This document shows, in pieces, positions 1 to 55,815 of a stretch of 64,000 nt of DNA. The DNA is from Glycine soja (taxonomy: Eukaryota > Streptophyta > Magnoliopsida > Fabales > Fabaceae), in NCBI RefSeq assembly GCF_004193775.1, contig NC_041021.1, positions 13,287,198 through 13,351,197 on the forward strand. Direction: 5' to 3'. A program made the position numbers and the translations under genes. The notes under the pieces are model-generated. The model was not told where the DNA came from. It made no database searches and worked only from the letters and a program-made list of their open reading frames with translations. Every line of letters starts with the position of its first letter. Position 1 is the stretch's first letter.

Positions 1-1390
1 CAGACACAGTCGTGTCCGATGGCACGCAGAGACAAAATTTGGTCATTCTGCACGCTTGTGTCATCCAGAGGCGGTGGGCCTGATGACACGCGGAGATACC
101 TTACGGTTATCCGCACCCTTTTGTCATCCAGAGGCGGCGGGCCCGATGACACGCAGAGACAAAATTTGGTCATTCTACACCCTTGTGTCATCCAGAGGCG
201 GCGGGCCCGATGACACGCGGAGATACCTTACGGTTATCCGCACCCTTGTGTCATCCAGAGGCGACGGGCCCGATGACACACGGAGATACCTTACGGTTAT
301 CCGCACCCTTTTGTCATCCAGAGGCGGCGGGCCCGATGACACGCAGAGACAAAATTTGGTCATTCTGCGCCCTTGTGTCATCCAGAGGCGGCGGGCCCGA
401 TGACATGCGGAGATACCTTACGGTTATCCGCACCCTTGTGTCATCAAGAGGCGGCGGGCCCGATGACACGTGGAGATACCTTACGGTTATCCGCACCCTT
501 TTGTCATCCAGAGGCGGCGGGCCCGATGACACGCAGAGACAAAATTTGGTCATTCTGCACCCTTGTGTCATCCGGAGGCGACGGGCCCGATGACACGCGG
601 AGATACCTTACGGTTATCCGCACCCTTTTGTCATCCAGAGGCGGCGGGCCCGATGACACGCAGAGACAAAATTTGGTCATTCTGCACCCTTGTGTCATCT
701 GGAGGCGACGGGCCCGATGACACGCGGAGATACCTTACGGTTATCCGCACCCTTTTGTCATCCAGAGGCGGCGGGCCCGATGACACGCAGAGACAAAATT
801 TGGTCATTCTGCACCCTTGTGTCATCCAGAGGCGGCGGGCCCGATGACACGCAGAGACAAAATTTGGTCATTCTGCGCCCTTGTGTCATCCAGAGGCGGC
901 GGGCCCGATGACACGCGGAGATACCTTACGGTTATCCGCACCCTTGTGTCATCCAGAGGCGGCGGGCCCGATGACACGTGGAGATACCTTACGGTTATCC
1001 GCACCCTTTTGTCATCCAGAGGCGGCGGGCCCGATGACACGCAGAGACAAAATTTGGTCATTCTGCACCCTTGTGTCATCTGGAGGCGACGGGCCCGATG
1101 ACACGCGGAGATACCTTACGGTTATCCGCACCCTTTTGTCATCCAGAGGCGGCGGGCCCGATGACACGCAGAGACAAAATTTGGTCATTCTGCACCCTTG
1201 TGTCATCCAGAGGCGGCGGGCCCGATGACACGCAGAGACAAAATTTGGTCATTCTGCACCCTTGTGTCATCCAGAGGCGGCGGGACCGATGACACGCGGA
1301 GACACCTTACGGTTATCCGCACCCTTTTGTCATCCAGAGGCGGCGGGCCCGATGACAAGTAGCGGCCAATGTGGTCATTCTGCACCCTTC
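1..1390 (+). repeat. 63/64-bp hairpin minisatellite in 3' UTR of element A
   Basis: About 22 units alternate between 63 and 64 bp and continue off the left edge. Each unit has two inverted repeats. The first is GTGTCATC...GATGACAC around a GC-rich loop. The second is GCGGA...TCCGC in one unit type (loop has accttacggtta) and GCAGA...TCTGC in the other (loop has caaaatttggtca). Long ORFs on both strands here only reflect the repeat period. The same family recurs, diverged, at 42890-44640, and in both places it lies just upstream of a PPT and LTR, so it belongs to an Ogre/Tat 3' UTR. Confidence 0.93.
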
Positions 1391-1894
1391 GTCAATCGCG
1401 GCCGACAAGCCCGTTGACACGCGGAGATTTACATCATCTTCCGCACTTACAAGATCTGTCATACTGACTTTTGAGTCATGCTGACGGGCGAAAATACCCG
1501 AGTGGTTATCCGTATAAACATTCTTTTGCTATCTGTAAGACAGAACGCTTGATAGCATGCAGAGACTGACATAGTCTTCTGCACCTTTTGTTCCTCCGGG
1601 AACAACAAGTCATTTGCATGCGGAAAGTTTATGGTCACCCGCGACTCTCGTCAACCGAGAGGAATGAAATTAGTATCATACCCTAATTTCGTCCGGGGAC
1701 CTTTGCTTGATGACATGCGACTTTTCTTTGGTCCTTGTGAGGTGCTTGGCACCCATCATTAGGCAATTTGTGAAATTCCGGGAACAACAAGTCGTTTGCA
1801 TGGGGAAATTTTATGGTCACCCGCAACTCTCGTCAACCGAGAGGAACGAAATTAGTGTCCTATCTTTACTTTCCTTTTATTTCCAACAAAAGAC
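1391..1894 (+). other. Rest of element A 3' UTR, with a 182-bp tandem duplication
   Basis: Degenerate hairpin units continue (TGCTATC...GATAGCA near 1530-1555, CTCTCG...CGAGAG near 1645-1662). The stretch from 1601 recurs from 1783. The first copy runs directly from the 3' UTR into LTR-start sequence (tcataccctaatttcg near 1677) and lacks the PPT. The second copy leads into the proper PPT and LTR. No gene seen. Confidence 0.7.
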
Positions 1895-1911
1895 AAGTAA
1901 AGAGGGGCAAC
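1895..1911 (+). other. Polypurine tract of element A
   Basis: AAGTAAAGAGGGGCAAC lies immediately before the LTR start TGTCATACCC. The same tract precedes the LTRs at 44988 and 56010. It is the expected plus-strand primer site for reverse transcription. Confidence 0.85.
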
Positions 1912-2340
1912 TGTCATACCCTAATTTCGTCTGGGGACCTTTGCTTGATGACATGCGGCATTTCTTTGGTCCTTGTGAGGTGCTTGGCACCCATCATTAG
2001 GTAATTTGTGAAATTCCGGGACATGCCGAAAAACAAAAGAAAATATTGATGCACAATCCGTAAGGTTCCGTGACACACCGGAAATCAAATGGAAGCATCG
2101 TTGCACAAATAAGTGAGGTTCTGTAACGTTCCGTAAGTCCAAAAGGGGATGATTATGTAATCCACAAGGTTCCGTAACATTACGGAAAGAAAACAAGTAT
2201 CGTTACGAAATTCGTAAGTTTCCGTAACTTTACGAAAAAAGAATCACAAAAAAAAGCAGAAGGGGGTGTACTTAGTAAAAATGGGGGTGCAAATAGCACC
2301 CAGGCCCACTTGGCCCTCCAGAATATTCCTCGAGAAGGCT

Positions 2341-2420
2341 GTTGCTTCTGGAGGAAGCAACCCTGCTCGCCTGGGCGAGCTGGGCGGCAAGCATCTCCCC
2401 TATTTTGATATAAATAGGGG
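2341..2420 (+). promoter_or_regulatory. LTR promoter: twin hairpins plus TATA box
   Basis: GTTGCTTC-tggag-GAAGCAAC (2341-2361) and GCTCGCCTGGGCGAGC (2365-2380) are perfect inverted repeats about 30 bp upstream of TATAAATA (2409-2416). The same arrangement is present in the LTRs of B and F and is eroded in E, so it is a conserved U3 core-promoter feature. Confidence 0.75.
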
Positions 2421-2614
2421 AGGAAGTGAAGAAGAAAAGGGTTCAGCCCCTTAGGCACTTCTCTCTCTTTCGAATTTGCTTGGAAAAATTGTTTCCGTGA
2501 AGAAAATCTAAGCCGAGGCGCTTCTGAAACGTTTCCATAACATTTTCCGTGAAGAATTTCGCAAAGGTTTCGACCGTTCTTCGACGTTCTTCATTGTTCT
2601 TCGATCTTCAACGG

Positions 2615-2620
2615 GTAAGT
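2615..2620 (+). other. Conserved splice donor GTAAGT in LTR
   Basis: GTAAGT follows a CTTCAAC motif about 200 bp after the TATA box. It is found at the same place in all five LTRs: 16963-16968 (minus), 45893-45898, 56657-56662 and 58031-58036. Function as a 5' splice site is inferred. Confidence 0.55.
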
Positions 2621-3550
2621 ACCTCGAACCAAGCTTTTTCGATTCATTCTATGTACCCATGGTGGTCCACATTGTCTTTTGTGTATTTCTATTCCCGTTT
2701 CATTTACTTTTTATACCCCCTCTTGACGTGCTTAAGCCATTTTACTTAAGTCATTGCTCGCTTAACCTAAAAATAAAATAAATTTCCACCGATCGTTTGA
2801 ATTGTATTATCCGTAAACTTCGGTTAAAATGAATTCCGACTGTTCGGTCGTGCCGTAACCACGTTGGAAATCAAAAAAGAGGTAAAAATAATATAATAAT
2901 AAAAAAAAACATCTTTTAGGTAAAATAAAGCGGAAAATCAATCGGACGTTTTCTCTTTGGGATTTCTCATTCTTAACCGAATTGACTAATAACTAAAGTG
3001 AAACTAAGGCTAAAATCAACTCGCCTGGTCAAGCTCGTCCATAAAAATAGGTTTTTGAAGTTTGTCATTTCAATTTCTTACTAAGTAAATGGATCGTTTT
3101 TTAAGGTCCAACGCCTTAAAATGGTGACCTTAAGTAAAAAGAATCACTTGATAAGAAAGAAATACGTAGGTCTGATTTCCTCATCGCAAATTGAGGAATA
3201 CGTAGGAGCAAAGGGAAACACCCTTGTCGACCACAAAAAGAGAAAAAAATATAAAAAGAGTAAAAAGGATATAAAGACATAAAAAGGGAACATAAAAATC
3301 AAGGTCATGTTTGCACATTCGATTAAAGGCTGCCGTCCCTTGGGACGGACGTGTGGGGTGCTAATACCTTCCCTGTGCGTAAATACAACTCCCGAACCTT
3401 TCACTTAAAAGTTCGTAGATCGCGTCTTTTCCAGTTTTTCCGACATTTTCCTCAAATAAACGTTGGTGGCGACTCCGCGCGTATTCCTTTCGTGGAACAC
3501 GCATCCCGCGAGTCACGCGTCGCCCTCCCGCCGAAGGGTAGGTTGTGACA

Positions 3551-5380
3551 GCAATGAATTCGCGGGGCTCCAGACTCATTGGTGGAGGACACATGAACAG
3601 CGCTAGGCAATGAATTCATGGGTCTCCGAATAAGATTGAGAATGGAGAATTGGCGGACAACGCTAGGCAATGAATTCGCGGGGCTCCAGACTCGTTGGTG
3701 GATGACACATGAACAGCGCTAGGCAATGAATTCATGGCTCTCCGAATAAGATTGAGAATGGAGAATTGGCGAACAGCGCTTGGCAATAAATTCGCGGGGC
3801 TCCAGACTCGTTGGTGGAGGCCACATGAACAGCACTAGGCAATGAATTCATGGGTCTCCGAATAAGATTGGAGAATAGAGAATTGGCGAACAACGCTAGG
3901 CAACGAATTCGCGGGGCTCCAGACTCGATGGTGGAGGACACATGAATAGCGCTAGGCAATGAATTCATGGGTCTCCGAATAAGATTGGAGAATAGAGAAT
4001 TGGCGAACAGCGCTAGGCAATGAATTCGCGGGGCTCCAGACTCGATGGTGGAGGACACATGAACAACGCTTGGCAATGAATTCATGGGTCTCCGAATAAG
4101 ATTGGAGAATAGATAATTGGCGAACAACGCTAGGCAATGAATTCGCGAGGCTCCAGACTCGATGGAGGAGGACACATGAACAGCGCTAGATAATGAATTC
4201 ATGGGTCTCCGTATAAGACTGAGAATGGATAATTGGCGAACAACGCTAGGCAATGAATTCGCGGGGCTCCAGACTCGATGGTGGAGGACACAGGAACAAC
4301 GCTAGGCAATGAATTCATGGGTCTCCGAATAAAATTGAGAATGGAGAACTGGCGAACAGCGCTAGGCAATGAATTCACGGGGCTCTAGACTCGTTGGTGG
4401 AGGACATATGAACAGCGCTAGGCAATGAATTCCTGGGTCTCCGAATAAAATTGAGAATGGAGAATTGGCGAACAGCGCTAGGCAATGAATTCGCGGTGCT
4501 CCAGACTCGATGGTGGAGGACACATGAACAGCGCTAGGCAATGAATTCATGGGTCTCCGAATAAAATTGAGAATGGAAAAATTGCGAACAGCGCTAGGCA
4601 ATGAATTCGCGGGGCTCCAGACTCGTTGGTGGAGGACACATGAACAGCGCTAGGCAATGAATTCATGTGTCTCCGAATAAAATTGAGAATGGAGAATTGG
4701 CGAACAGCGCTAGGCAATGAATTCGCGGGGCTCCAGACTCATTGGTGGAGACAAATGTACAGCGCTAGGCAATGAATTCATGGGTCTCCGAATAAGATTG
4801 GAGAATAGAGAATTTGCGAACAACGCTAGGCAATGAATTCGCGGGGCTCCAGACTCGATGGTGGAGGACACATGAACAGCGCTAGGCAATGAATTCATGG
4901 GTCTCTGAATAAGATTGGAGAATAGAGAATTGGCAAACAGCGTTAGGCAATGAATTCGCAGGGCTCCAGACTCGATGGTGGAGGACACATGAACAGCGCT
5001 AGGCAATGAATTCATGGGTCTCCGTATAAGACTGAGAATGATTTATTGGCGAACAACGCTAGGCAATGAATTCACGGGGCTCCAGACTCGTTGGTGGAGG
5101 ACACATGAACAACGCTAGGCAATGAATTCATGGGTCTCCGAATAAAATTGAGAATGGAGAATTGGCGAACAGCGCTAGGCAATGAATTCGCGGGGCTCCA
5201 GACTCGATGGTGGAGGACACATGAACAGTGCTAGGCAATGAATTCTTGGGTTTCCGAATAAAATTGAAAATAGAGAATTGGCGAACAGCGCTAGGCAATG
5301 AATTCGCGGGGCTCCAGACTCATTGGTGGAGGACACATGAACAGTGCTAGGCAATGAATTCATGGGTTTCCGAAAAAAGC
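3551..5380 (-). repeat. 116-bp hairpin array in 3' UTR of element B
   Basis: About 16 units of roughly 116 bp, each made of two related half-units (about 56 and 60 bp) sharing aacagcgctaggcaatgaattc. On the plus strand one half-unit pairs CATGAA...TTCATG and the other GCGAA...TTCGC around the same loop core. Between them lie CTCCA...TGGAG and TCTCC...GGAGA. The array is related to the 54836-55815 array on the opposite strand, which fixes the sense strand of B as minus. ORFs on the minus strand are repeat artefacts. Confidence 0.92.
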
Positions 5381-8962: not shown

Positions 8963-9012
<50 letters not shown>

Positions 9013-10205: not shown

Positions 10206-10305
10206 GGAAACTACTAGCCCCTTAACCGGGAGCGCAAGTCTCGGTTAAGCATCTAAGGGCAAAGGACCTTATATTCTCTTAAGGTGTGGATATGGAGCAC
10301 ACAGA

Positions 10306-10405
10306 AAATGAGGACGCGTAGCCCTCTAAAGGCGAGGGCGTGCAGCCCTCTGCAGGCAAGGATGTGCAGTCCTCTGATGGCGAGGACATATAGTCCTCTA
10401 AAGGT
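10306..10405 (-). repeat. Short (about 4-unit) 24-bp hairpin array in element B
   Basis: About four units of the 24-bp repeat seen at 19438-21463, in inverted orientation. Its flanks (10406-10520) match the left flank of the large array (19320-19437), so this is the same site in two related elements with very different copy number. Confidence 0.85.
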
Positions 10406-16054: not shown

Positions 16055-16056
16055 AC

Positions 16057-17669
16057 TGTCGCAACGTGCCCTTTTGGTGGGCGTGCGAGGCGCGGCTCAC
16101 GGGTGCGCTTTCCAAAGGAGGAAAGATGCGCGAAGTCGCCACCAACGTTTATTTGTGGAAAACATCGGAAAAACCGAAGGAAACCGGTCGAAATGAAAAT
16201 TCTAAGTTCGGGAGTTGTATTTACGTTTGAGGAAGGTATTAGCACGTCTTACGTTTGTCTCAAAGGACAACAACCTATTTTTTAGAATTGTGAAATTGTG
16301 TTATCTTAACTTTCATTTTCTTTTTATTTTTTGAGGTCGACAAAAGTGGGGCTCTTGCGCCTACGTACCCTCCATCAAAGAGGAAATCAGACCTACGTAG
16401 TTCTTCCTTTAAGGGTGAATCAAGCGATTCTTTTTACTTGAAAGGTGATCATTTTAAGGCGTTGGACCTTAAGAACGATCCATTTACTTGGTAAGGAAAA
16501 CTGAGATAATAAACTTTCAAATCCTTTTTTAGTGATTTTTTTAAGGACGAGCTTGACTTGGCGAATTGATTTTAGCCTTAATTTCGCTTTAGTTATTAGT
16601 CAATTCAATTAAGAATGAAAAATCCCAAAGAGAAAACGTCCGATTGATTTTCGCTTCATTTTACTAAAAGACATTTTTTTTATTATTATATTATTATTTT
16701 ACCTCTTTTTTGATTTCCAACGTAGTTACGGCACGACCGAACGGTCGGAATTCATTTTAACAGAAATTAACGGATGATACAATTTAAATGATCGATGGAA
16801 ATTTATTTTATTTTTTGATTAGGCGAGAAATGACTTAAATAAATGACTGAAGCACGTCAAAAGGGGGTACGGAAAGTAAATGAAAACAAGAATAAAAATA
16901 CATGAAACAAAATGTGGACCACCACGGGTACATGGAATGAATTGAAAAGCTCGGTTTGGGGTACTTACCAGTTGAAGACCGAAGAAAACGATGGATGTCA
17001 AAGAACGGTTGAAAACCTTCGCGTAATTACTCACAGAAACGTTACAGAAACGTTATGGAAGCGCCTCGGCTTGAATTTTCTTCACGGAAACAATTTTCCT
17101 CAGCAAATTTAAGAGAATACGAAGTGCCAAGAAGGCTGAACCCTTTCCCCCTTCATTCCTCCCCCTATTTATAGCAAAATAGGGGAGGAGCTTGCCACCC
17201 AGCTCGCCCAGGCGAGCAAGGTTGCTTCCTCCAGAAGCAACCGCCTTCTGGAGGAAGAAACTGGAAGGCCCAAGTGGGCCTGATTGCTATTTGTACCCCC
17301 ATTTTTACTAAATGCACCCCCTTTACTTTTTTTGGTAATTCTTTTTCCGTAACGTTACGAAACTTTACGAATTTCGTAACGATATTTATTTCCCTTCCGC
17401 AAGGTTACGAATCCTTACGGATTATGTATTTACTCTTTTTTAGCTTTCGAAGAAGTTACGGAAACTCACGGATTGCGCAAAAACACCTCCTTTCGATTTC
17501 CGTCACATTACGGAATTTCACGGATCGCGTAAGCCTGCTTCCTTTTGATTTCCGGCACGTCTCGGGACTTCACATATTGTGCAACAAAGGGTGCCAAGTA
17601 TCTCGAAGCGGCCAATCAAAGGTTGCATATCATCAAATAATAATCCCCAGACGAAATTAGGGTATGACA
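16057..17669 (-). mobile_element. 5' LTR of Ogre/Tat element B
   Basis: On the minus strand it starts TGTCATACCC (17669) and ends GTTGCGACA (16057), 1613 bp. The TATA box is at 17166-17173 (tatttata on plus), the GCTCGCC...GGCGAGC hairpin at 17202-17217, the splice donor at 16963-16968, and the CTACGTA module at about 16336-16410. The next bases right (CCATT, 17670-17674) are inside a plus-strand gag homologous to B's own, so B inserted into a relative. Confidence 0.92.
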
Positions 17670-18140: not shown

Positions 18141-19437
18141 TGAATCCTAACATTGACAAGCGACACCACACATGGGGCAATTTTGAAAGCTGTTGTTAGA
18201 TGTCTCTAATGACTCATCAGGATTTTCAAGTTAATGCCATTATTGTAAACCATAGTTACAATGCTAAATAAAATGGATAAATTTGATATCTTTGTCCCTC
18301 ATCCTCTCATAATTACATCTTTGCTTCCACTGGAATGTGGGTGCAAGCCATTGGTTTCTTTGCTCAAGCGACCTGCGCTCTTGCTTCCAAGACCGTTCAA
18401 TCAGAAATTACTCGTGCTACACATTCGGTGAGGAAGCCGTAAACAACGAGTAAAGCAGAAAAGTTCAAAAAGAAAAGGAAAAAAGCATTTGATTGACTGT
18501 GTTTTCAAGTAAAATATAGACGTTCATGTGACCTCATTTTATCATTCCGGAAAGTTTGTCTATTTTAGAGAGAAGCGAGTTATCAAGAATAGGAGTCATT
18601 TGACTTAATCCGTCAACTAAAAAAATCCTTCAACTATTTCTCGTCCTTGGAAAATTCTTTTTGCAAGAATCAACCGCTTCTTTCATTCTTCCTTGCTACA
18701 AGGTTGTGAAAACAAAACAACGATGGTTACCTCAGAGCCCTACACTGGGGCAATGAAAGGCACCATGCATAAACCTCAAGTGAACCTAGGGGTAGATTAG
18801 AAGTTCTCACCCAATAGGTTCCCTGCTACAAGGTCATGATGAAAGACAATGATTGGTACCTCAAAGCCTTACACTGGGGCAATGAGGGGCATCGTGCATG
18901 AGCCTCAAGTGAACATAGGGGCAGATCAAAAGTTCTCACCCGTCGATGTTTTTAAACAAAAAAAAGGGGGACAAATCCTGGAATTTCAATGGATTGATTA
19001 AACATCAAACAACTCCATTTCCGTCTCTTCAAAATGGTCAAGTGACTAAATCAAACAGAACATACACTCTGAGGGAGTTCCCAGAGAGATTTGCAAAAGA
19101 TAGGATAAGGTAGCATGAATTATCACCTCTTTCAAAAGAACAGTCAATCTGTGTTTTCCAAAAAAATTAAATTAAAATCAAAATCAAAAAATAGGGAAAG
19201 AATGTCATGAACATTGTACAACTTTCCATTACATTGCATTGTTTCATATGAAGTCCGTATTTACCAAATTTCACAACAAATGTTGTATGCATCTGCATCC
19301 CTAAAAATCATGTTAACTGCATAGATTTCCTACATCTAATGTCCAATCCTTTGAATTTGGGATGACCGACCCTCTCAATGAGTCAATCTCATGCTTTCTA
19401 ATAAGGGTGGACCCATGGGTACTGGAACCTATTGCCT
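18141..19437 (+). other. Element C spacer between gag and 24-bp array
   Basis: Collinear with element B 12744-10406 read on the minus strand, without the solo LTR, so it preserves that insertion's empty site at about 18586-18612. No pol domain is present. No gene seen. Confidence 0.65.
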
Positions 19438-22167: not shown

Positions 22168-22169
22168 GT

Positions 22170-22180
22170 GGTATCAGAGA
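22170..22180 (+). other. Primer binding site, tRNA-Met type
   Basis: TGGTATCAGAG two bases after the LTR end is the usual initiator tRNA-Met primer site of plant Copia elements. Confidence 0.9.
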
Positions 22181-42562: not shown

Positions 42563-42889
42563 AACGAAGACAGGTAGTGATCATTATAGGATTTTACACA
42601 ATATATCTTAGATCAATAATTTCAATACAATAACTTATTGAGACCGATACACATAAAAAGGGCATGAATGGTGCATTTTGCTTCAAGGGTTCTAGAAAGA
42701 CCTGATTGATCATTATATTTATGAAGAAATTAGGTAAATATGACCAATAACTTTTAGTGAAGGAACACCGAGACTATTTTAGTCTCACAAAAGCAAGAAC
42801 TACGTAGGTCTGAGTTCCTCATCACAAATTGAGGATACGTAGGAGCAAAAGCCTCACTTTTGTCGACCACCCCACATTTTGCTATCGTG
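42563..42889 (+). other. Left junction and start of element E 3' UTR
   Basis: From about 42763 the sequence matches the inverse of element B 7240-7440, with the CTACGTA hairpin module (42796-42880). Left of that is unassigned DNA; the exact junction is not resolved. Confidence 0.5.
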
Positions 42890-44640
42890 ACTTGTGAGTC
42901 TGGTGGCACGCGGAGACACTCGATGGTTATCCACACACACGTTTTGCTATCCTGTGACCCGAGAGTCTAATGGCACGTGGAGACACCATATGGTTATCCG
43001 CACCCCGTCATTTGTAGACCCCAAGCCCGATTGACACGCAGAGACCAATGTGGTCATCTGCACCCTTTCCGGAGATGTCAGCATCTTCCAGCCGAGACTA
43101 TTTTAGTCTCACACAATTAGCAAGAACTACGTAGGTCTGAGTTCCTCATCACAAATTGAGGATAATTAGGAGCAAAAGCCTCGCTTTTGTCGACCACCCC
43201 ATCTTTTGTTGTCGTGACCTGTGAGTACGTTCGCACGTAGAGATGCCCTATACGGTAACCCGCACACACTCTTTTGCTATCTGTCAGACTCAGAGTTCAG
43301 TAGTATGCATAGACTAACGTCGTCTTCTGCACCTTTCGTCAACAAGGGGGAGTGAGCCTGTTGATGCGCAGAGACTAACGTCGTCTTCTGCACCTTTTGT
43401 CATCCAGAGACGACGAGTCCGATGACATGCGGGGGTACCGTATGGTAATTTGCACCTTTTCTCATCCTGAGACGGCGAGTCCGATGACATACGGGGGTAA
43501 CGTAAGGTTATCCACACCTTTCGTCAACCAGGGGCAAATGAGCCCGTTGACGCGCAGAGACTAACATCGTTTTCCGCATCTTTTGTGATCCAGAGATGGT
43601 GAGTCCGATGACATGCGTGAGTACCGTATGGTTATCCACACCTTTTGCTATCCAGAGACAGCGAGTCCAAAGACATGCGGGGGTACAGTATGGTTATCCG
43701 CACCTTTCATCAACCAGGGGCAAACGAGTCCGTTGACACGTAGTGACTAACGTTGTTTTCTGCACCTTTCGTCAACCAGGGGGGAAGCGAGCCCGTTGAC
43801 GCACAGAGACTAACATCGTCTTCTGCACCTTTTGTCATCTAGAGACGACGAGTCCGATGACATGCGGGAGTACCGTATGGTTATCCGCACCTTTTGTCAT
43901 CCAAAGACGGGGAGTCAAATGATATGCGGCGGTACCGTATGGTTATCCACACCTTTCGTCAACCAGGGGCAAACGAGCTCGTTGACACGCAGAGACTAAT
44001 GTTATCTTCTGCACCTTTCGTTAACCAGGGGTATTGTATGGTTATCCGCACCTTTTGTCATCCAGAGACGGCGAGTTCGATTACATGCGGGGGGTACCGT
44101 ATGGTTATCTGCACCTTTCGTCAACTAAGGGCAAACGAGCCCGTTGACGCGCAGAGACTAACATCGTCTTCTGCAACTTTCGTCAACTAGGGGGGAAGCG
44201 AGCCTGTTGACGCGCAGAGACTAACGTCGTCTTCTGCACCTTTTGTCATCCAGATACGGCGAGTCCGATGACATGCGGGGGTAGCGTATGGTTATTTGCA
44301 CCTTTTGTCATCCTTAGACGGTGAGTTCGATGACATGCGGGGGTACCGTATGGTTATCCGCACCTTTCGTCAACTAGGGGCAAACGAGCTTGTTGACGCG
44401 AGAGACTAACGTCGTCTTCTGCACCTTTCCTCAACTAGGGTCAAGCAAGCCCATTGACGCGCAGAGACTAACGTCGTCTTCTACACCTTTTGTCATCTAG
44501 AGACGGCAATCCGATGACATACAGGGGTACCGTATGGTTATCCGCACCTTTTATCACCCAGAGACGGCGAGTTAGATGACATACGGGATACCTTATGGTT
44601 ATTCGCACCTTTCGTCAACCAAGGCGAACGAGTCGACAGT
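42890..44640 (+). repeat. 63-bp-type hairpin array in 3' UTR of element E
   Basis: Two module types alternate irregularly. Modules with GTCATC...GATGAC are followed by GCGG...CCGC, and modules with GTCAAC...GTTGAC by GCAGA...TCTGC. The array is related to 1-1390 but more diverged and with many point changes. A CTACGTA hairpin module interrupts it at about 43128-43200. Confidence 0.9.
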
Positions 44641-44987: not shown

Positions 44988-45232
44988 TGTCATACCCTAA
45001 TTTCATCTGGGGACCATTATTTGTTGGCATGCGACCTTCGCTTGACTGCCTCAAAATGTTTAACACCCACCGTTATGTAATTTGTAAAGTTTTGCAACGT
45101 TCTGGAAAGGAAAAACAAGCATTGTTGCGCAATCCGTAAAGTTCCGCAACATTCTGGAAGTCAAAAACAAGCATTGTTGCGCAATTCGTAAAGTTCCGCA
45201 ACATTTCGAAAGTCAAAAAGAGCATTGTTGCG
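44988..45232 (+). mobile_element. 3' LTR of element E, left piece
   Basis: Starts TGTCATACCC. Three U3 repeats of about 57 bp (cgtaaagttccgcaacatt...cattgttgcg) lie at about 45075-45232. The LTR is split at TTGCG (45228-45232) by element F and resumes at 57573. Confidence 0.9.
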
Positions 45233-46799
45233 TGTCATACCCTAATTTCGTTCGGGGATTATTACTTGATGACATGCAACCTTTTATTGGCCGCTTCGAG
45301 ATACTTGGCACCCTTTGTTGCATAATATGCGAAGTCCCGAGACGCGCCGAAAATCAAAAGGAAGTATTGTTACACAATCCGTGAGTTTCCGTAACTTCTT
45401 CGAAAGCTAAAAAAGAGTAAATACATGATCCGTAAGGATTCGTAACCTTACGGAAAGAAAATAAATATCGTTACGAAATTCGTAAAGTTTCGTAATGTTA
45501 CGGAAAAAGAATCACCAAAAAAGGTAAAGGGGGTGCATTTAGTAAAAAGGGGGGGTACAAATAGCAATCAGGCCCACTTGGGCCTTCCAGATTCTTCCTC
45601 CAGAAGGCGGTTGCTTCTGGAGGAAGCAACCTTGCTCGCCTGGGCGAGCTGGGTGGCAAGCTCCTCCCCTATTTTGCTATAAATAGGGGGAGGAGTGAAG
45701 AGGAAAGGGTTCAGCCTTCTTGGCACTTCGTATTCTCTTAAATTTGCTGAGGAAAATTGTTTCCGTGAAGAAAATCCAACCCGAGGCGATTCCGTAATGT
45801 TTCCGTAACATTTCCATGGGTAATTACGCGAAGATTTTCATCCGTTTTTCGACATTCATCGTTCGTTCTTCGTTTTCTTCGGTCTTCAACTGGTAAGTAC
45901 CCCAAATCGAGCTTTTCAATTCATTCTATGTACCCGTGGTGGTCCCCATTTGTTTCATGAACTTTTATTCTTGTTGTCATTTACTTTCCGTACCCTCTTT
46001 TGACGTGCTTCAGTCATTTATTTAAGTCATTTCTCGCCTAATCAAAAATATAAAATAAATTTCCACCGATCATTTGATTTGTAATATCCGTTAATTTCTG
46101 TTAAAATGAATTTCGACCGTTCGGTCGTGCCGTAACCACGTTGGAAATAAAAAAAAGATGTAAAATAATAATATAATAATAAAAAATACCCTTTTAGTAA
46201 AATGAAGCGAAAAATCAATCGGACGTTTTCTCTTTGGGATTTCTCATTCTTAATTGAATTGACTAATAACTAAAGTGAAACTAAGGCTAAAATTAACCCG
46301 CCTAGTCAAGCTCGTTCACAAAAAAATCACTAAAAAAGGAATTGAAAGTTTATTATCTCAATTTTCCTTACCAAGTAAATGGATCATTTTTAAGGTCCAA
46401 CGCCTTAAAATGATCACCTTTAAAGTAAAAAGAATCGCTTGATTCACTCTTAACTCTTAAGAAAAAACTACGTAGGTCTGATTTCCTCTTCGATGGAGGA
46501 TACGTAGGAGAAAAAGCCCCATTTTTGTCGACCTCAAAAAAATAAAAAAGAAATAAAAGGTAAGATAACACAATTTCACAATTCTAAAAAATAGGTTGTT
46601 GTCCTTTGAGACAAACGTGAGAGGTGCTAATACCTTCCTCAAACGTAAATACCACTCTCAAACTTAGAATTTTCGTTTTGACCGGTTTCCTTCAGTTTTT
46701 TCGACGTTTCCCACAAATAAACGTTGGTGGCGACTCCGCGCATCTTTCCTCCTTTGGAAAGCGCACCTGTGAACCTCGCCTCGCACGCCCGCAAAAGGT
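45233..46799 (+). mobile_element. 5' LTR of element F, fused to RT
   Basis: Matches 56010-57567 until 'cacgcccg(c/g)aaaagg'. The last roughly 16 bp (gcatgttgcgaca) and everything up to RT are lost. It has the GCTCGCCTGGGCGAGC hairpin (about 45636), TATAAATA (about 45680) and GTAAGT (45893-45898). The CTACGTA module is at about 46466-46540. Confidence 0.9.
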
Positions 46800-49661
46800 A
46801 TGTGGTGGAAAGAAATGTGTGTAGACTATCGCGACTTAAACCGAGCCAGTCCTAAAGACAATTTTCCCCTGCCACACATTGATATATTGGTAGATAATAC
46901 GACCAAGTTCGCCCTTTTCTCATTTATGGATGGTTTCTCGGGGTATAATCAAATAAAGATGGCACCCGAAGATGTAGAGAAGACCACTTTCGTCACCCTA
47001 TGGGGAATGTTCTGCTATAAAGTGATGGCCTTCGGGTTGAAAAATGTTGGGGCAACCTATCAGCGTGCCATGGTGGCGTTGTTCCATGACATGATGCATA
47101 AGGAGATAGAGGTCTACGTAGATGACATGATTGCCAAGTCTCGGACTGAGGACGAACACCTCGTCAATCTCCGTAAGCTGTTTGGAAGGTTGCGGAAATA
47201 CCAACTAAAGCTAAACCCAACCAAATGCACCTTCGGGGTAAAATCGGGGAAGTTGCTGGGGTTTATCGTAAGTCAGAAAGGGATAGAGATAGATCCCGAG
47301 AAAGTGAAGGCCATTCTTGAAATGCCAGAACCACGCACGGAGAAGCAGGTTTGAGGTTTCTTGGGTAGGTTGAATTATATCGAGAGATTTATCTCACAAC
47401 TCACCCCTACATGTGAGCCCATTTTCAAGCTATTACGTAAGAACCAGACAGTCCTGTGGAACGGCGACTGCCAAGAGGCCTTCGAGAAGATCAAATAAAG
47501 CCTCGCGAACCCCCCAGTGCTCATGCCACCTGTAACAGGGAGACCTCTTTTCCTATACATGACTATGTTAGACGAGTCTGTGGGGTGCGTGTTAGGTCAG
47601 CACGATGATTCTGGAAAAAGGGAACAAGCCATTTACTATCTAAGCAAGAAATTTACCGCATGTGAGATGAATTACTCAATGCTGGAAAGGACGTACTGCG
47701 CCCTGGTGTGGGCGTCACATCGGCTTAGGCAGTACATGCTCAGTCATACCACGTGGCTTATTTCCAAAATGGATCCCGTTAAATACATCTTCGAAAACCC
47801 GGCTCTCACGAGACGAATTGCTAGGTGGCAGGTACTACTATCTGAATTCGATATTGTGTACGTCACCCAAAAGGTGATAAAGGGGAGCACTTTGGCAGAT
47901 TATTTGGCCCAGCAACCCCTCCAGGATTATCTGCCGATGCACCCGAAGTTCCCGGATGAAGACATCATGGCCCTATTCGAAGAGAAGCAAACGCACAAGG
48001 ACATAGACAAATGGATTGTTTGCTTCGATGGGGCATCTAATGCTTTGGGCCATGGAGTAGGGGCAGTCCTTGTATCCCCAGATGATCAGTGTATTCCTTT
48101 CACGGCTAGGCTAGGTTTTGATTGTACCAACAATATGGCCGAGTATGAAGCATGCGCCCTCGGGGTTCAAGCGGCCATTGATTTTGATGTAAAACTACTC
48201 AAAGTGCATGGAGACTCGGCTTTGGTGATACGCCAGTTGAAAGGAGAATGGGAAACTAGGGATCCGAAGTTGATACCCTATCAAACTCACATCTTAAGGA
48301 CACCCATCCATGTTTCAACTGGCCCCACACGGGGATCTACCGTACATCGAGTTCAGATCTCAGGGCAGGCCAGCGTATTGTTGCGCGATAGAGGAAGAGC
48401 GGGATGGGAAACCGTGGTACTTCGATATCAAACATTATGTTGAGAACAAAGAATACCCACCAGGGATTTCCGACAATGACAAAAGAACGTTGAGGAGATT
48501 GGCTACAGGTTTCTTTGTAAGTGGTACCATCCTGTACAAACGAAACCATGATATGACCCTCCTACGATGCGTAGATGCCAAAGAGGCGAACTTCATGATT
48601 GAGGAGATCCACGAGGGTTCATTCGGGACACATGCCAATGGGCATGCTATGGCCAGGAAGATCCTTAGGGCCGGTTATTACTGGCTCACTATGGAAAGCG
48701 ATTGCTGCGCACATGTAAGGAAGTGTCATAAATGTCAAGCGTACGCGGACAATGTCAATGTTCCGCCACATCCTCTGAATGTTATGTTCGCCCCTTGGCC
48801 TTTTTCCATGTGGGGGATAGATGTCATTGGGGCCATCGATCCCAAAGCTTCGAATGGTCACCGCTTCATTCTTGTGGCAATAGATAACTTCACCAAATGG
48901 GTCAAAGCAGCTTCTTATACTAATGTCACGAGAAGTGTGGTGGTCAGATTCATAAAGAGGGAGCTGATTTGTCGATACGGACTCCCTAAGAAGATCATTA
49001 CTGACAATGGCACCAATCTGAACAACAAAATGATGCAAGAAATGTGCGAGGATTTCAAGATCCAACATCATAATTCCACCCCTTATCGGCCAAAGATGAA
49101 TGGGGCTGTAGAGGCCGCGAATAAGAATATTAAGAAGATTGTTCAAAAGATGACGGTGTCATACAAAGATTGGCATGAGATGTTGCCTTTCACCCTGCAC
49201 GGATATAGAACCTCGGTACGAACTTCTATTGGGGCAACGCCGTATTCCTTGGTTTATGGGATGGAAGCGGTACTCCCATTTGAGGTAGAGGTTCTTTCTC
49301 AGAGGATAATAGCGGAATCAGGCCTAAAAGAGTCAGAATGGGCTCGAGCACGCTACGACCAACTCAACCTTATTGAAGGTAAGCGGTTGACAGCCATGAG
49401 CCATGGGCGCCTATATCAACAAAGGATAAAGAACGCGTTCGATAAGAAGGTGCGCCCGCGCAAGTTCAACGAGGTGGACCTTGTGCTGAAGAAGATGTCC
49501 CACGTTGTTAAGGATAATTGAGGCAAGTGGGCCCCGAATTATGAAGGACCTTTCGTTGTGAGGAGGGCTTTTTCTGGGGGTGCCCTGATACTCACCAACA
49601 TGGATGGCGAGGAGCTACCCTCGCCCGTGAACTCCGATGTCGTTAAGCGATATTACGCTTG
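46800..49661 (+). pseudogene. pol: pol of element F: RT, RNase H, archaeal RNase H, integrase
   Basis: RT from about 46806 reads CVDYRDLNRASPKDNFPLPH, FMDGFSGYNQI and the catalytic YVDDMIAKS; its N-terminus and the protease are deleted. Retroviral-type RNase H follows (about 47517-47760, ACEMNYSMLERTYCALVWA). Next is a second, archaeal-type RNase H (about 48010-48290: CFDGASN, NNMAEYEACALG, HGDSALVIRQ). Integrase has an HHCC finger (about 48605-48740) and the DDE residues WGIDVIG, TDNGTN and GAVEAANK. Breaks: TGA 47352-47354, TAA 47496-47498, a deletion and frameshift near 48300, TGA 49519-49521. The reading frame after that stop ends at about 49661. The copy is dead without supplied proteins. 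Confidence 0.93.
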
Positions 49662-50337
49662 AAGTCTGGGGTAATTGAGAGGGCTGTTGCATGTTCTTTT
49701 ACTTCTGAGTTTTTTGTTCTTCTTGGTTTCCTCCAGGGATTCCCTTTCATTGTATTTGTCTCGTTTCTTTAAAAGAAGAGAAGATGGGTGAGGCTTCAGT
49801 CCTCCCTTTGATTTTAAACCTTGTGTTAATAACTTGAGCCCTCTTTGCTCAGTTCATGGGGTGCCCCAAGCGCTTAGATTAAAATTGAACCTAACCAGCC
49901 TTCACTAAAAAAAATCATTGAATTAAAAAACATTCATGCATGCACGCACACATGCATATCTTGTAGTAACAGGGGCAGAATCGTCTTAGGCCACGGTCAG
50001 AAGTCGAGACAAGTTGACGGCAGAAATCAACCAAGGTAAGATGATGACCTGGTCACGATTGGCCGCATATTGTTTGTTTCCTACTTGCAGGTACTTAGGG
50101 ACGGATGCAAATGGAGGATAGGGTCACGACCGACCGATCGTCGTCCCTTTCCGGTGCTGGGTAAGCGGAGAACGTCGCTGCAAGGCAGCCCAGTATCCTT
50201 TGAATTCACAGTATTTATTACTATTGTTTGTTTTAAATAAGTAATCGACGTCTGATTCTAACTTAAGTAGGTTCGAGTAGGCAGACGCAAACCCGTAAAG
50301 GGGGGGAGGCATGTTTAATGTTTCCCAAAAAAAAAGG
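49662..50337 (+). other. Spacer between integrase and internal promoter of F
   Basis: No coding domain. Polypurine 'aaagaagagaagatggg' near 49772. An A-rich run (about 50327-50335) precedes the hairpin. Confidence 0.55.
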
Positions 50338-50386
50338 GTACAGGTTAGCTCGCCTGGGCGAGCAACCCCTGTACGAAAATATAAAG
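50338..50386 (+). promoter_or_regulatory. Predicted internal promoter of accessory ORF
   Basis: Nested hairpin: GTACAGG (50338-50344) pairs with CCTGTAC (50368-50374), enclosing GCTCGCCTGGGCGAGC (50348-50363), the same palindrome that precedes the TATA box in the LTRs. TATAAAG follows at 50380-50386. Downstream are a plausible leader and an intron before the ORF. Promoter activity is inferred from the shared arrangement. Confidence 0.55.
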
Positions 50387-50535
50387 GAGTGGAGGGGGAA
50401 CGTGTTCTTCACCCAAAAACTCTTCCCCCTCACTTCAAAAGCTCCCAAGCTCACGGGAACTACAAGAACAACAGCCCCCAAGCTCCATTGTTGAGTTTTT
50501 GCTTCCCTTTTCACGCTTTAATTCTCTCCCCACAA

Positions 50536-51652
50536 GTAAGTGCAATTTCCCTTGGTTATTTGGCTCTCCATTGATGTGTTTTGGTGCTTTAGTTGCTTAT
50601 TTTTCACAAAATTCATGAAGCAATTCACATCTGAATCCATGCTTGTTTTGTTGAGTTGAGGGTTTGTGTGAGAAGGCCTTAGGCCTATGTTGTATTCTGA
50701 AGCAATGGGGCATGCCACATTGCCCCCGTTCTCTTGCAATTTATGTCTAAACATGCGCCCACCGAGTGCTCGTTGAAATGCCCCAATGACATATGAATGT
50801 GATTTTGTAAAATCGGGATTGTGGGACTGTTTTATATATATGGGGACAGCATAGGGGATTCGAAATGGGTGCCCAAATGCAATTCCAAGCTTAGAAACCC
50901 AAGCTCTTAGCTTCAATGCAAGGCCACATACTTATGACTAAGGACCTAAATTTTGGTTTTGGAAGTAGGAAGGCATGAAAATTAGGACATGATTGTGAGA
51001 GTTTTTTTACTCGAATTTGGCTGCCCCATGAGGGATACTTTGCACCTAGGTAGCGTGGAAAATACTTTTCAATGGTATGTAAATATGTGTGTAAATATAG
51101 GTAGCATGGAAAACACCTTTCAATGGTGTGTATATATGTGAACATATGGCATGAAATTCCTTGCAAAGTGTGAATGAGTATCTTCCTAAATGAATATTGA
51201 GGTCGCTTCCTAAATGAATGTATGCTGGCATGGAATTCCCTTTTGAATGCAAGTGTGTGCATGACGTAATTAGCTTTCCAACATGCATATAAATAAATGT
51301 GAGTGAAACAATAAAAGTTTGTATGATATATGTTTCAAATATGTATAGGTAGTTTGTGATAGCAAATGTTTAGGATGTGATTAGGTGTAAATTTTGACTC
51401 AATGCCTTGAGCATGAGAATGTGTGTTCTTTTCAAAATGCATATATATATGTATGGCAATTAGAATGTGTTGGATGTCCTTGTACGTTGACATAAATAGT
51501 AGGATATTCTACACATACGCATGTGCATAAATATTTTACCTTAAAAGTGTGCATGAGTTCATTCTAAATCGGAGGGATTAGCATGTCATTTTTGTGTTAA
51601 GATAAGCATTATCTTGTAAAACTAACTTCCCAAAATGTTTGTCTTTTTTTAG
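50536..51652 (+). other. Predicted 5' UTR intron of accessory ORF
   Basis: Donor GTAAGT at 50536-50541 and acceptor TTTTTTTAG ending at 51652, 4 nt before the ORF start. The 1117-bp interval is AT-rich with stops in all frames, and includes short repeats of 'gtagcatggaaaacaccttt' type near 51050-51120. Confidence 0.55.
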
Positions 51653-51655
51653 GAA

Positions 51656-52903
51656 ATGGCCCCAAGGAAGCTTGCCTCAAAGAGATCCAAGAAAGACAAA
51701 GCGGCTGAAGGAACCAGTTCTGCTCCCGAATATGATAGACACCATTTTAGGAGCGCTGAGCACCAGTAGCGCTTCGAGGCCATCAAAGGATGGTCATTCC
51801 TCCAGGAGAGACGCGTCCAGCTCAAGGATGACGAGTATACCGACTTCCAGGAAGAGATAGTTCGTCGGCGGTGGGCATCGCTGGTTACCCCCATGGCCAA
51901 GTTCGACCCAAACATAGTCCTCGAGTTTTATGCCAATGCTTGGCCTACAGAGGAGGGTGTGCGAGATATGCGATCTTGGGTGAGGGGTCAGTGGATCCCT
52001 TTCGATGCAGATGCCCTCAGCCAGTTCCTGGGATACCCTTTAGTGCTGGAGGAGGGCCAGGAGTGCGAGTATAGCCAGAGGAGGAACCAGGCCGATGGGT
52101 TTGATGAGGAGGCCATCGCCCAGTTGCTGTGTATACCGAGGCAGGATTTTGCCCGGATTACTGCTGGGAGACGCGTGCGAATCATGCGCACCAACATGAC
52201 CACCCTGACCCAGATATGGATGACGTTGTTGCTCAGCAACATCCAGCCCAACGATCATAATTCCGACCTCCCCCTGCCAAAGTGTCAACTGGTGTACGCC
52301 GTCCTAACACAGATGAGCATTCACGTGGCTCAGTTGATCGCTGATGCCATTTATCTATTTGCAGGTATGGCGCCGACCAGGCACCCTTTGGACCCAGATA
52401 AGTCCAACAGGGCCCTGGGATTTCCCGCATTGATCACAGGACTTTGTCAGTCGTTCGGAGTCCCCGTCGCACCTAGCAAGGTGATTCGGCCACCCATCAC
52501 CTGGGCTTTTATTGAGAAGTATTGCACGCAGAGACCGGCCCAGGGTGATGCACCACAGGCCGCAGACGCGCCGCCACCTCATCAGGCTGGCCTAGCTGGG
52601 TCATTTGATTCGGAGCAGTATTTACGGCATGTGGTTCGCTGGCAGGCGGCCAACCACCGGGCGCACGTGCAGACCCATGACTGTCTTTACCAGCTGAGCC
52701 TCAGCCTGCAGAGCCAGGGTTTTACTTCTTTTCCATGCCCTACTCCGGATCAATTCAGGGCAGAGGTCGCATGGCCCAGAGATTGGCCTGAGGCCCAGGC
52801 AGGGGAGGCACCCGCAGAGGCTCCCGGCAAGGCAGATGAGGCCCGCGAGGACGAGGAGATGACCAATTTGCTTGATTTCTTAGGAGGGAGCGGAGCTACA
52901 TGA
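51656..52903 (+). pseudogene. Accessory ORF of Ogre/Tat element F (putative plant transposon protein family)
   Basis: The frame begins ATGGCCCCAAGG right after the predicted splice acceptor and ends at TGA 52901-52903, 415 codons. A single in-frame TAG at 51767-51769 (codon 38, after RSAEHQ) separates a basic N-terminus (KLASKRSKKDK) from the body. Main blocks: EFYANAWPTEEGVRDMRSWV, SQFLGYPLVL, RRVRIMRTNMTTLTQIWMTL, APTRHPLDPDKSNRALGFPA, and an acidic C-terminus ending EDEEMTNLLDFLGG. The family is common in soybean repeats and lies between integrase and 3' LTR in Tat elements. Its function is unknown. With only one stop it may be recently inactivated, or translated from the internal ATG at 51893. 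Confidence 0.85.
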
Positions 52904-54835
52904 TTGGGAGATCCTTAGATCCATATTCTCTTTTATGTTTCCTCTTTTATCTGTTACGTATCATTTTATTTTTTTTAACTAAGGGACTAACGTTTGTTTC
53001 ATTTTGATTGACTTTTGTTTTGTGCATACATGTCGTTTGAACTGTTACGTTAGTATTTACTTCGTTGTTGTCAATAGTGTCTGTTGAAATTCCGGAATCA
53101 CGTAGAATTTTTTCACTTTTAGGAACGTCGTCCAAAATAAAAATAAAATGAACCAAAATCATGATAAAAAAAGAAAGAAGCGTTGTGAATAAAATGTCTA
53201 TGTATATAAAGAAAAAGGAAAAAATGTTTTTAAAAGGGAAATATGTATAAAAGGATTTTTGTGTGTAAATGATGCGTGGAAAGGAATTCTTGTGTGTGTG
53301 AGCAATGAGTGTATATAAAGAAACTTTTGTATGAACCACAGGTGTGTGTTGAAAAAAAGGAAGGAAGAGAAAAATATTTGAACATGAATAGGGTTCGTAT
53401 ATAGACTGTGTGACGTAAACAGAAAGAGTTCTAATGCGTGTACAGAAAAAGTTCGTCATGTATAAGAATGCAGATATACAAAGAAAAGTTTTCCTCATAA
53501 AGGGCCATGGGTGTATAGTTTTGTGAATATAAAAATGAAACAAAAAGGAAAAAAGAAAGGAAGACCTCGAAGGTCGACATGTTATAGTTAGGAAGCATAA
53601 ATCATTCGTAGAGAGCAAACATATCTTTTGGAAACAAGGGATTGACGCTAAGAGTTTATTTTCCTGAATAACCGAGATAAGAATGGATGAATTCATTGAA
53701 CTGATGAAAGAACATAATTTGGAAACATTGGGTCTGTTTGTGTAAATTCCCAACCGTAGTATCACAATGCCATAAACGAGATGCTTGGGTGCCCACCTGG
53801 TTGTGGCCATGACTAATTTTGCACGTTGTTTCCAAATCATCATTGTCGCGCGTGCCTTGTGGAATAATATGGAAGTTCGGCCCGAGACCGACACCTTGAC
53901 ACCCAAATTTGTTTTGCCCCAGATATCAAGATCAGGGCTCCCACGATAAAAGCCCCCTTTGAGACATAACCTCAGACTATTTTGGACCTTGGCCTATCAA
54001 AAGAATCCTCATCCTCTCCCCCGAAGCAAAGGACAACAAAATCTCCTCAAGGGAGAGCGAATAGAATGCTAAAACCCAATTTCCAAAAGAAAGGAATGGA
54101 AAAGGAGAAGTGAAAAGAAAGAAAAAGGAAAAGATGAAAACAAAGAAAAGAACAATAAAAAAGAAAGAAAAAGAAGGATTCCCGATCGAAGATCGAAAGG
54201 AAGTAAAAATGGAAAATAGGAGGAAAACAGAGTAATTCTCAATCAATGAAAGAAAGAGAACAGAAAATCTTCAGACCAGATAAATTTTCGGCAAGGTAGG
54301 TGACTATCGGCAAAGGAAAACCCATTTTTTGGAGGTTCTTCCTTTCGAATGGCCATTCAAGGTCATTCTCGATTGGCGATATCCCGCCCCACATAAACAA
54401 AGAGAAAAAGGCCGGAACACTTGGCTTCCTCCCCAAAAAACACTACCCTCGAGAAAATCCTATTGATCCGTGATCGTACGTGTGATCTTTGATTCGATAG
54501 GAAATCGTGTGCAAAATAAAGTCATGGTGCAGTTATGGTTTGGGATTAGGGTAAAATACTTGCCTGTGTGAGTTTTTTATACACTATGAGTGATTTATTC
54601 CCAGTTCCAGCTTAACCCGATGTTTCCCCTGAATGTTCATTTAAAAGTTGAATGTTGACATCCTGCCCTTCGTTTTCGGGTACGAGGAAGATTACCCTTG
54701 GCATAAGTATATTGTTTCTCCAAGATATGGTGCTCTCGCGAATGATTTATTTTTCTTTGCAAAAAGCATGTTTTCCTTTTTAGGTGGAAAAAACCCGGTG
54801 GACCATTCGGTCCTGCCAACTACTTTTCTTCGGAG
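52904..54835 (+). other. Element F 3' UTR before the array
   Basis: Inverse of element B 5381-7130. It contains a purine-rich stretch (54090-54240), the sense-strand equivalent of the pyrimidine tract in B. ORFs on the opposite strand (52947-53906, 53977-54246) are low-complexity. No gene seen. Confidence 0.65.
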
Positions 54836-55815
54836 CCCCATGAATTGATTGTCGTTCATGCATCCTCCACCCACGAGTTTGGAGCCATGCGTAGTGATTG
54901 CCTAGTGCAATTCTCCATTCTCACCTTTTATTCGGAGCCCCATGAATTGATTTGTCGTTCATGCATCCTCCACCAACGAGTTTGGAGCCATGCGTAGTGA
55001 TTGCCTAGTGCAATCCTCCATTCTCCAATGTGTTCTTCACCGTCAAGTGCGGACCCTCTTGACTGGGAAATGTGGTCTTTGTTATTTTCCCGATTGATTC
55101 CTCCACCAACGAGTTTGGAGCCATGCGTCGTGATTGCCTAGTGCAATTCTCCATTCTCACCTTTTATTCGGAGCCCCATGAATTGATTTGTCGTTCATGC
55201 ATCCTCCACCAACGAGTTTGGAGCCATGCATAGTGATTGCCTAGAGCAACCCTCCATTCTCCAATGTGTTCTTCACCGTCAAGTGCGGACCCTCTTGACT
55301 GGGAAATGTGGTCTTTGTTATTTTCCCAATTGATTCCTCCACCCACGTGTTTGGAGCCATGTGTAGTGATTGCCTAGTGCAATTCTCCATTCTCACCTTT
55401 TATTCGGAGCCCCATGAATTGATTTGTCGTTCATGCATCCTCCACCAACGAGTTTGGAGCCATGCGTAGTGATTGCCTAGTGCAACCCTCCATTCTCCAA
55501 TGTGTTCTTCACCGTCAAGTGCGGACCCTCTTGACTGGGAAATGTGGTCTTTGTTATTTTCCCGATTGATTCCTCCACCAACGAGTTTGGAGCCATGCAT
55601 AGTGATTGCCTATTGCAATTCTCCATTCTCACCTTTTATTCGGAGCCCCATGAATTTATGGTCGTTCATGCATCCTCCACCAACGAGTTTGGCGCCATGC
55701 GTAGTGATTGCCTAGTGCAATCCTCCATTCTCCAATGTGTTCTTCACCATCAAGTGCGGACCCTCTTGACTGGGAAATGTGGTCTTTGTTGTTTTCCGGA
55801 TCGGTTCCTTCACCA
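54836..55815 (+). repeat. Mixed hairpin array in 3' UTR of element F
   Basis: About four copies of a unit near 240 bp. Inverted repeats: CATGAA...TTCATG, CTCCA...TGGAG, GTCAAG-tgcggaccct-CTTGAC, and GGGAAA...TTTCCC. It is related to the 116-bp array of B (3551-5380), with extra modules inserted. Confidence 0.85.

Follow-up and report, generated by a model that had tools for sequence, protein, structure and literature searches.

The window considered here is a stretch of 64,000 nucleotides from Glycine soja (contig NC_041021.1, positions 13,287,198 to 13,351,197 of the forward strand), and comparison with itself by BLAST indicates that nested long terminal repeat (LTR) retrotransposons are stacked across it. 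Elements A to E of this stack carry five large arrays of short tandem repeats (Table 1). In the 63-bp family of these repeats, one hairpin (HP1) changes its letters and keeps its pairing in replicating lineages, and does not keep it in inserted copies. We read the arrays as hypervariable tandem repeats of Gmr9/GmOgre-like Tat elements whose stem pairing was maintained during replication, most likely through selection on the sense-strand RNA; this reading is tentative, held at slightly less than even confidence.

Element A (45233-57567) is inserted in an LTR of element D, with TTGCG at both ends. Pfam places RT_RNaseH and RVT_3 within one open reading frame (ORF) of element A, the one of A to E for which this arrangement was seen. 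An archaeal-type second RNase H behind the RT-RNase H is the defining trait of the Tat lineage, and the domain set of element A fits the Tat lineage of Ty3/gypsy. Such an enzyme (aRH) is named in PMC7004042. Tandem repeats between pol and the 3′ LTR, a further mark of Tat elements, were seen at arrays 1, 4, and 5 and in all 40 of the loci described below.

Table 1. Positions of the arrays, example hairpins, and element parts in the window. LTR, long terminal repeat; ORF, open reading frame; PPT, polypurine tract; TRF, Tandem Repeats Finder.
Feature	Position	Strand	Basis
Array 1, 63/127-bp family, upstream of element C 3′ LTR, runs off window start	16..1357	+	TRF; units
HP1 example, GTGTCATC/GATGACAC	692..723	+	sequence; fold
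HP2 example, GCGGA/TCCGC, inner ACC/GGT	724..748	+	sequence; fold
LTR, read as 3′ LTR of element C	1912..3550	+	self-BLAST; PPT-like stretch directly upstream
Array 2, 116-bp family (half units 56 and 60-61 bp), element B 3′ region, interrupted by C	3551..5374	-	TRF; units; reverse homology to array 5
HPb example, CATGAA/TTCATG form	5104..5132	-	unit comparison; register
HPb example, GCGAA/TTCGC form	5165..5191	-	unit comparison; register
Small 24-bp array inside element B beside Transposase_32-like piece	10310..10404	-	TRF; homology to 18589-19576; tblastn
LTR, read as 5′ LTR of element B	16056..17669	-	self-BLAST
Array 3, 24-bp family, 84 full units, internal to element E	19434..21464	+	TRF; units
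Array 4 (63-bp family, flanking units diverged), upstream of element D 3′ LTR	42873..44633	+	TRF; units
LTR start of element D, split by element A, resumes ~57573	44988..45232	+	self-BLAST; TTGCG flanks A
Element A 5′ LTR	45233..46798	+	self-BLAST; 95.15% identity to 3′ LTR
Element A ORFs: RVT_1, RT_RNaseH, RVT_3, rve, Transposase_32	46773..52900	+	Pfam
Array 5, 236-bp form of 116-bp family, element A 3′ region	54823..55816	+	TRF; units
HPb example in array 5, CATGAA/TTCATG	55177..55199	+	sequence; arm table
Element A 3′ LTR	56010..57567	+	self-BLAST

TRF confirmed, to within about 35 bp, the coordinates that a preliminary description had given for the five arrays. That description called them unrelated-looking. 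Neither the view that the five arrays are unrelated nor a location of all of them in 3′ untranslated regions (UTRs) could be upheld. By self-BLAST and comparison of units there are only three families, with the 63-bp family in arrays 1 and 4, the 116-bp family in arrays 2 and 5 on opposite strands, and the 24-bp family in array 3. The 24-bp arrays are internal to elements, beside gag-like or Transposase_32-like sequence and not beside the PPT.

Fifty-six PPT-anchored loci were fetched from the same genome, 40 and then 16 for validation; two were misplaced. The 40 were picked from the first 100 listed of 3715 PPT-LTR-start matches in a genome of 1,013,641,977 bases, and all lie on contig 1. Every one of them (40/40) has a TRF array (score ≥150) ending at most 525 bp from the LTR start; these PPT-adjacent arrays belong to the 63-bp family in 31 loci, to the 116-bp family in seven, and to neither in two. 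The latter two loci (L014 and L047) and validation locus L061 carry further hairpin units (e.g., AGGACTCAAAGTCCT and AAGACGACAACGTCTT), and L014 loosely resembles the 24-bp unit (eight windows with at least 17 of 24 matches). A 24-bp array lies 3.8 to 5.0 kb upstream of the LTR, and is therefore internal, in at least 13 of the 40 loci, a lower bound because 5 kb were fetched. Rfam at gathering scores recognized no known family in the window, and an IMG/VR search for relatives gave no result. Derivation of the 63-bp unit from the LTR start was considered and left as unproved: GATGACATGCG is common to both, but the best profile match has E=0.0085 over 16 bases.

Units of the 63-bp family were collected by nhmmer with a sequence-only profile from 33 fetched loci and arrays 1 and 4. 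This gave 542 units, with 473 near full length (at most 15 gap columns) and 297 distinct. HP1 arms read TGTCATC/GATGACA, CGTCAAC/GTTGACG, and TGCTATC/GATAGCA, and each HP1 pair is standard in 85-98% of the distinct units. Counted by locus, the alternative pairs are C-G for T-A (22), T-A for C-G (23), A-T for T-A (12), and A-T for G-C (9); G-U and A-C states number 98 and 50 pair-by-locus cases. HP1 is the best paired of 1071 registers (0.922), with 196 double-change cells against 6-54 in slid registers. Ranking registers by pairing-preserving double changes is a control that preserves all relatedness among the units, and the HP1 diagonal holds the top six of 1159 five-pair registers (650-1298; next 575). 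The register double-change and recent-versus-old counts left out units with more than 10 gap columns, and column pairs with fewer than 40 changes were left out of the kept double-change ranking. If column pairs are ordered by kept fraction only, those of HP1 take places 26-218 among 1243, because T columns pair with both A and G; the stem mean is 0.79 against 0.28 elsewhere. The validation set yielded 50 new units, drawn from at most 10 of its 16 loci; in these, HP1 is 85% paired and has 30 double cells against 0-11 in slides, and slightly higher pairing (0.862) is seen in one register, which has no double changes.

The age of a change matters for HP1. Between near-identical units of one array, 11 of 26 changed pairs are kept (0.36 expected from random placement), with zero double changes. 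When units of different loci that differ at 17-25 positions are compared, 896 of 1051 changed pairs are kept (0.49 at random), and 483 of the 503 changed on both sides are still paired. Because comparisons between units share ancestry, each change was also counted once on a FastTree tree, as the mean of 25 reconstructions. Branches leading to at least two loci hold about 29 kept and 17 broken changes, and single-locus branches 26 kept and 55 broken (odds ratio 3.6, p=0.0009). No contrast between shared and private branches appears when the HP1 register is slid by -2, -1, 1, or 2 (p≥0.22). Among HP1, HP2, the inner HP1 stem, and the junction hairpin HPb of the 116-bp family, an excess of pair-keeping changes on replicating lineages was found for HP1 only.

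For the 116-bp family there were 13 sources, arrays 2 and 5 together with 11 loci; removal of units with more than 30% gaps took the sample from 295 to 142 distinct units. The inner five pairs of HPb are 94-99% paired in these units. HPb occurs as ATGAA/TTCAT (13 sources), ACGAA/TTCGT (L020, L024, L032, and L051), and GCGAA/TTCGC (L013 and array 2). Array 2 has two junction hairpins, and the one with the GCGAA/TTCGC form is without an equivalent in array 5. By paired fraction HPb leads all 3321 registers, and the top four by kept double changes lie on its diagonal. Comparisons across loci at 15-40 differences show 98 kept and five broken double changes, and recent changes comprise four kept, five broken, and no doubles. 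As the independent events are few, these counts are only suggestive that HPb keeps its pairing while its letters change.

Array 3 is made up of 84 units of exactly 24 bp, with no indel despite much substitution. Pair 12-20 is A-T in 48 units, G-C in 30, and other in six, and it is standard in 79 of 84 (expected, 61.6). No association is seen at any of the other five pairs (p 0.35-1.0; ≥0.28 if only Watson-Crick pairs are counted), and rare changes per column are as common in the arms (3.3 and 2.7) as in the spacer (3.1) and loop (4.0); pairing in array 3 is not maintained unit by unit. Across 314 distinct units from array 3 and other loci, pair 12-20 is standard in 298 (240.6 expected), pair 9-23 is marginal (p=0.0135), and the remaining pairs have p≥0.17. 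Since the two arms of this hairpin are mirror-image contexts, mutation alone predicts a G-U to A-C ratio of about 1:1. Discordant states at pair 12-20 are G-T in 31 units and A-C in nine, against 52 and 49 at the non-CpG control pairs 8-24, 10-22, and 11-21 (Fisher p=0.005). Of 20 loci, 18 have G-T at pair 12-20 and six have A-C. All six pairs together have 110 G-U and 117 A-C. Genome-wide exact matches give 2335 G-U and 1024 A-C at pair 12-20, and control pair 11-21 has a G-U count of 238; copies inside one array are not independent, and the nominal p of the genome-wide count is given no weight. The 24-bp array was rejected as a protein repeat, because its SPSEDYTS/SPSEGYTP-like frame has stops and no third-base excess (hand reckoning).

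Folding of 130-nt windows was compared with that of dinucleotide-shuffled sequence. Averaged z scores (plus/minus strand) are -2.79/-2.77 for array 1, -1.44/-1.90 for array 2 (sense strand minus), -5.32/-2.77 for array 3, -1.04/-0.92 for array 4, and -0.48/-0.98 for array 5, with a background of -0.62/-0.62. A stricter test used 100 permutations of the unit columns, applied alike across units so that tandem repetition was preserved, and covered part of each array (14 units, 8 dimers, 40, 14, and 3 units for arrays 1-5). Permutations at least as stable as the real sequence numbered 2, 1, 1, 33, and 15 of 100 on the sense strand of arrays 1-5, and 2, 4, 29, 12, and 22 on the antisense strand. 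On the sense strand, arrays 1, 2, and 3 thus fold better than their column-permuted controls, and arrays 4 and 5 do not. In the 40-locus set, z on the sense/antisense strand comes to -2.77/-2.17 for the 63-bp family (29 loci had usable windows), -4.45/-3.13 for the 24-bp family (13 loci), -1.28/-1.91 for the 116-bp family (seven loci), -2.29/-1.60 for other 3′ arrays (21), and -3.20/-1.01 for other internal arrays (25); non-array windows give -1.25/-0.97 near the 3′ end (38 loci) and -0.50/-0.02 elsewhere (40 loci). Hairpin content is general in the arrays of the sampled loci, and it is weak in the 116-bp family. Except in that family, the sense strand folds more strongly than the antisense strand, and non-array windows also lean to the sense strand in 31 of 40 loci. 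Internal arrays, mostly 70-bp and AT-rich (L009-L048; window 8738-8969), fold strongly on the sense strand only.

Several of our results weigh against maintained pairing as the explanation of these arrays. A generic covariation score, computed with our own scripts in the manner of R-scape under two tree-based nulls, finds no pair with E<0.05 in the 63-bp or 116-bp family (best HP1 pair, E=0.9). Absence of significant covariation after correction for phylogeny, which the preliminary description named as refuting its idea, is what this generic score shows; the pairing-specific event test finds HP1. In that event test, HP2 (14:13 vs. 27:48, p=0.17) and HPb (3:3 vs. 9:17, p=0.65, about six shared events) are not significant, and the inner HP1 stem points in the opposite direction (5:16 vs. 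22:22, p=0.06); unit trees are also distorted by recombination. An off-diagonal, poorly paired register (0.32) has 224 raw double cells, exceeding HP1, and in the validation set three off-diagonal registers reach 31-32 against the 30 of HP1. Amplified units of the 63-bp family lack the HP1 5′ arm in L049, L050, and L062, so the hairpin is not required in every unit. The G-U to A-C ratio of HP1 on the tree (shared branches 16:9, private 21:31) does not reach significance (p=0.09), and a G-U excess is absent at HP2 (20 vs. 31 loci). Arrays 4 and 5, as given above, fold no better than column-permuted controls.

The claim that every array conserves pairing rather than sequence is accordingly narrower than first proposed. 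It stands for HP1, on 33 fetched loci plus arrays 1 and 4, 50 validation units, and tree events; for HPb, register rank favors it and the tree test does not. It does not extend to all arrays: only one pair covaries in the 24-bp family, neither HP2 nor the inner HP1 stem passes, arrays 4 and 5 do not surpass their folding controls, and recent changes break pairs freely. Arms that change together were likewise found by reading in the 63-bp family and the 116-bp junction hairpin, and in array 3 only at one of the six pairs, 12-20.

The arrays belong to a class that is already known. Tandem, interleaved minisatellites A-E lie between the coding region and 3′ LTR of Gmr9/GmOgre, an Ogre-lineage element of soybean, where [ABAC]n = 26+38+26+37 = 127 bp (PMC3305785). 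Copies of the element number over 3,200 in a genome of roughly 1 Gb, and the function of the minisatellites was stated as unknown (PMC3305785). TRF gives a period of 127 bp in array 1 and in many loci, the position before the 3′ LTR also agrees, and the 3715 PPT-LTR-start matches may reflect a similar copy number. Judged by length, the arrays look like the Gmr9/GmOgre minisatellites; the 24-bp and 116-bp families do not fit A-E by length. In Tat/Ogre elements generally, 3′ UTR tandem repeats are described as hypervariable, located downstream of pol, built of family-specific units, fast in turnover, and able to seed satellites (PMC7004042), and the present arrays resemble them in position, family-specific units, and fast turnover. 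In Retand, about half of recent elements bear such arrays, non-autonomous copies are common, and origin and function are called unknown; in contrast to Retand, the ORFs scanned here gave no Pfam match to its typical antisense TRP28 ORFs. The Gmr9/GmOgre account covers order, number, and map (PMC3305785), and conserved pairing is what we add to it and to the description in PMC7004042. In these two papers and the Retand paper, "hairpin" and "secondary structure" do not occur, and "palindrom" occurs twice in the Retand paper. A literature search on hairpins, covariation, or compensatory change in LTR retrotransposons and Tat elements returned nothing on the question by title or start of abstract, most subscription papers being outside its reach. 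The literature searched agrees in this with the preliminary description, which took pairing conservation to be undescribed, and such conservation would be a new property of known arrays.

Element B carries a gag-like ORF (Retrotrans_gag, E=0.0015, 19.2 bits, under the curated 24.1) and Transposase_32-like pieces. The RT, RNase H, and integrase pieces of element A have no tblastn match in 1-16056, and element B therefore looks non-autonomous. Its 5′ LTR is adjoined on the minus strand by TGGCGACTCCACTGGGGA, which we take to be the primer binding site. Element C appears to be nested in array 2 of element B, since the LTR of C ends at 3550 and the array begins at 3551. A copia-type element (21464-27320) lies at the end of array 3, with LTR copies 94.19% identical and a copia gag match, and integrase and RNase H domains mark a further Ty3/gypsy element at 62034-64000 (minus strand). 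The stretch 9440-9949 (minus strand) consists of tandem units of about 186 bp, and arrays of 182-190 bp occur in L017, L018, L033, L037, and L046. Each unit of about 186 bp joins a piece of a Transposase_32-like ORF to a 50-nt intron-like stretch, AGGTAAGTATG...TTTGCAGG (9933-9882, 9747-9696), so that these arrays are repeated exon-intron units. At about 1640-1860, pre-PPT sequence is fused to a copy of the LTR start in tandem, and border-type arrays of 164/183 bp occur in L011, L012, L015, L017, L019, L022, L025, L028, L031, L036, L039, L040, L043, and L060. These fused units indicate that repeats here do form across the 3′ UTR/LTR border.

Under selection on pairing, the units of the arrays would carry short stem-loops in the genomic RNA. 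In replicating lineages, HP1 changes would be accepted more often if they leave a pair, often with the partner changed too, and HPb changes would probably be accepted under the same preference; after insertion, the stems of a copy would decay freely. The most likely agent would be selection on the sense-strand genomic RNA of the element. Tolerance of G-U at pair 12-20 of the 24-bp family and, weakly, at HP1 suggests RNA as the selected form. An array could then present a stem-loop site many times over, with Gag binding, packaging, or dimerization among its potential uses. Our preferred guess is a multivalent site for Gag, because none of the 40 sampled loci lacks an array beside its PPT even though the arrays vary in number and sequence, and because copies with no detected pol contain 24-bp arrays. 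Retroviral packaging and dimerization rely on several short stem-loops in genomic RNA, near its 5′ end. Several short RNA stem-loops acting together would work alike in both cases, whereas the retroviral ones are not tandem arrays of tens of copies.

The main rival is a bias in copying, which we consider possible but doubtful. Hairpins would pause reverse transcriptase and cause template switching, hairpin units would be re-amplified, and copying of a folded-back arm would renew pairing. Such a process would leave nearly the same traces as RNA function and predicts the same split of shared and private changes. Strand transfer during replication, of an abnormal kind, is the published proposal for the origin of Tat 3′ repeats (PMC7004042), and the border units, both in the window and in many loci such as L012 and L022, show repeats forming across the 3′ UTR/LTR border. 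However, fold-back copying should yield Watson-Crick pairs at once, and G-U is common both at HP1 and at pair 12-20; arrays whose units lack HP1 also amplify.

We think it rather unlikely that inheritance and unit shuffling explain the pattern, with a few unit types that differ at both arms spreading and covariation reflecting shared ancestry. The non-significant generic scores under tree nulls are what this predicts, as are the single covarying pair of array 3, whose other five break freely, and the roughly three forms on which HPb rests. In the window-only alignment of the 63-bp family (a short unit at 44010 and some remnants left out), paired columns do not stand out by generic score and non-paired columns covary as strongly. 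Yet for HP1 the shared and private branches remain distinct when every change enters the test a single time, slid stems show no such distinction, and the HP1 diagonal leads all registers by kept double changes. That the arrays act through their hairpins as small-RNA sources or decoys is very improbable: stable local hairpins exist, but stems of 5-8 bp are short for Dicer-like enzymes.

Maintained pairing, as we read it for HP1, may have a wider meaning. Tat 3′ repeats in general could be RNA stem-loop arrays selected on pairing alone: every replicating lineage would carry such an array, active in its genomic RNA, even as stems differ in sequence, monomer length, and family. The array might, for instance, be a multivalent site of Gag binding or dimerization through which pol-less copies could better compete for particles; we regard this extension as speculative and, on balance, improbable. 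The function and origin of Tat/Ogre 3′ repeats, the source of many plant satellites, are called unknown or undetermined in the parts of the literature seen, and pairing that is kept across lineages and lost after insertion offers a sequence-level handle on their function. If this reading is right, it would explain why the repeats vary so fast and are nevertheless present beside the PPT in all sampled loci, and satellites born from these repeats would start out hairpin-rich.

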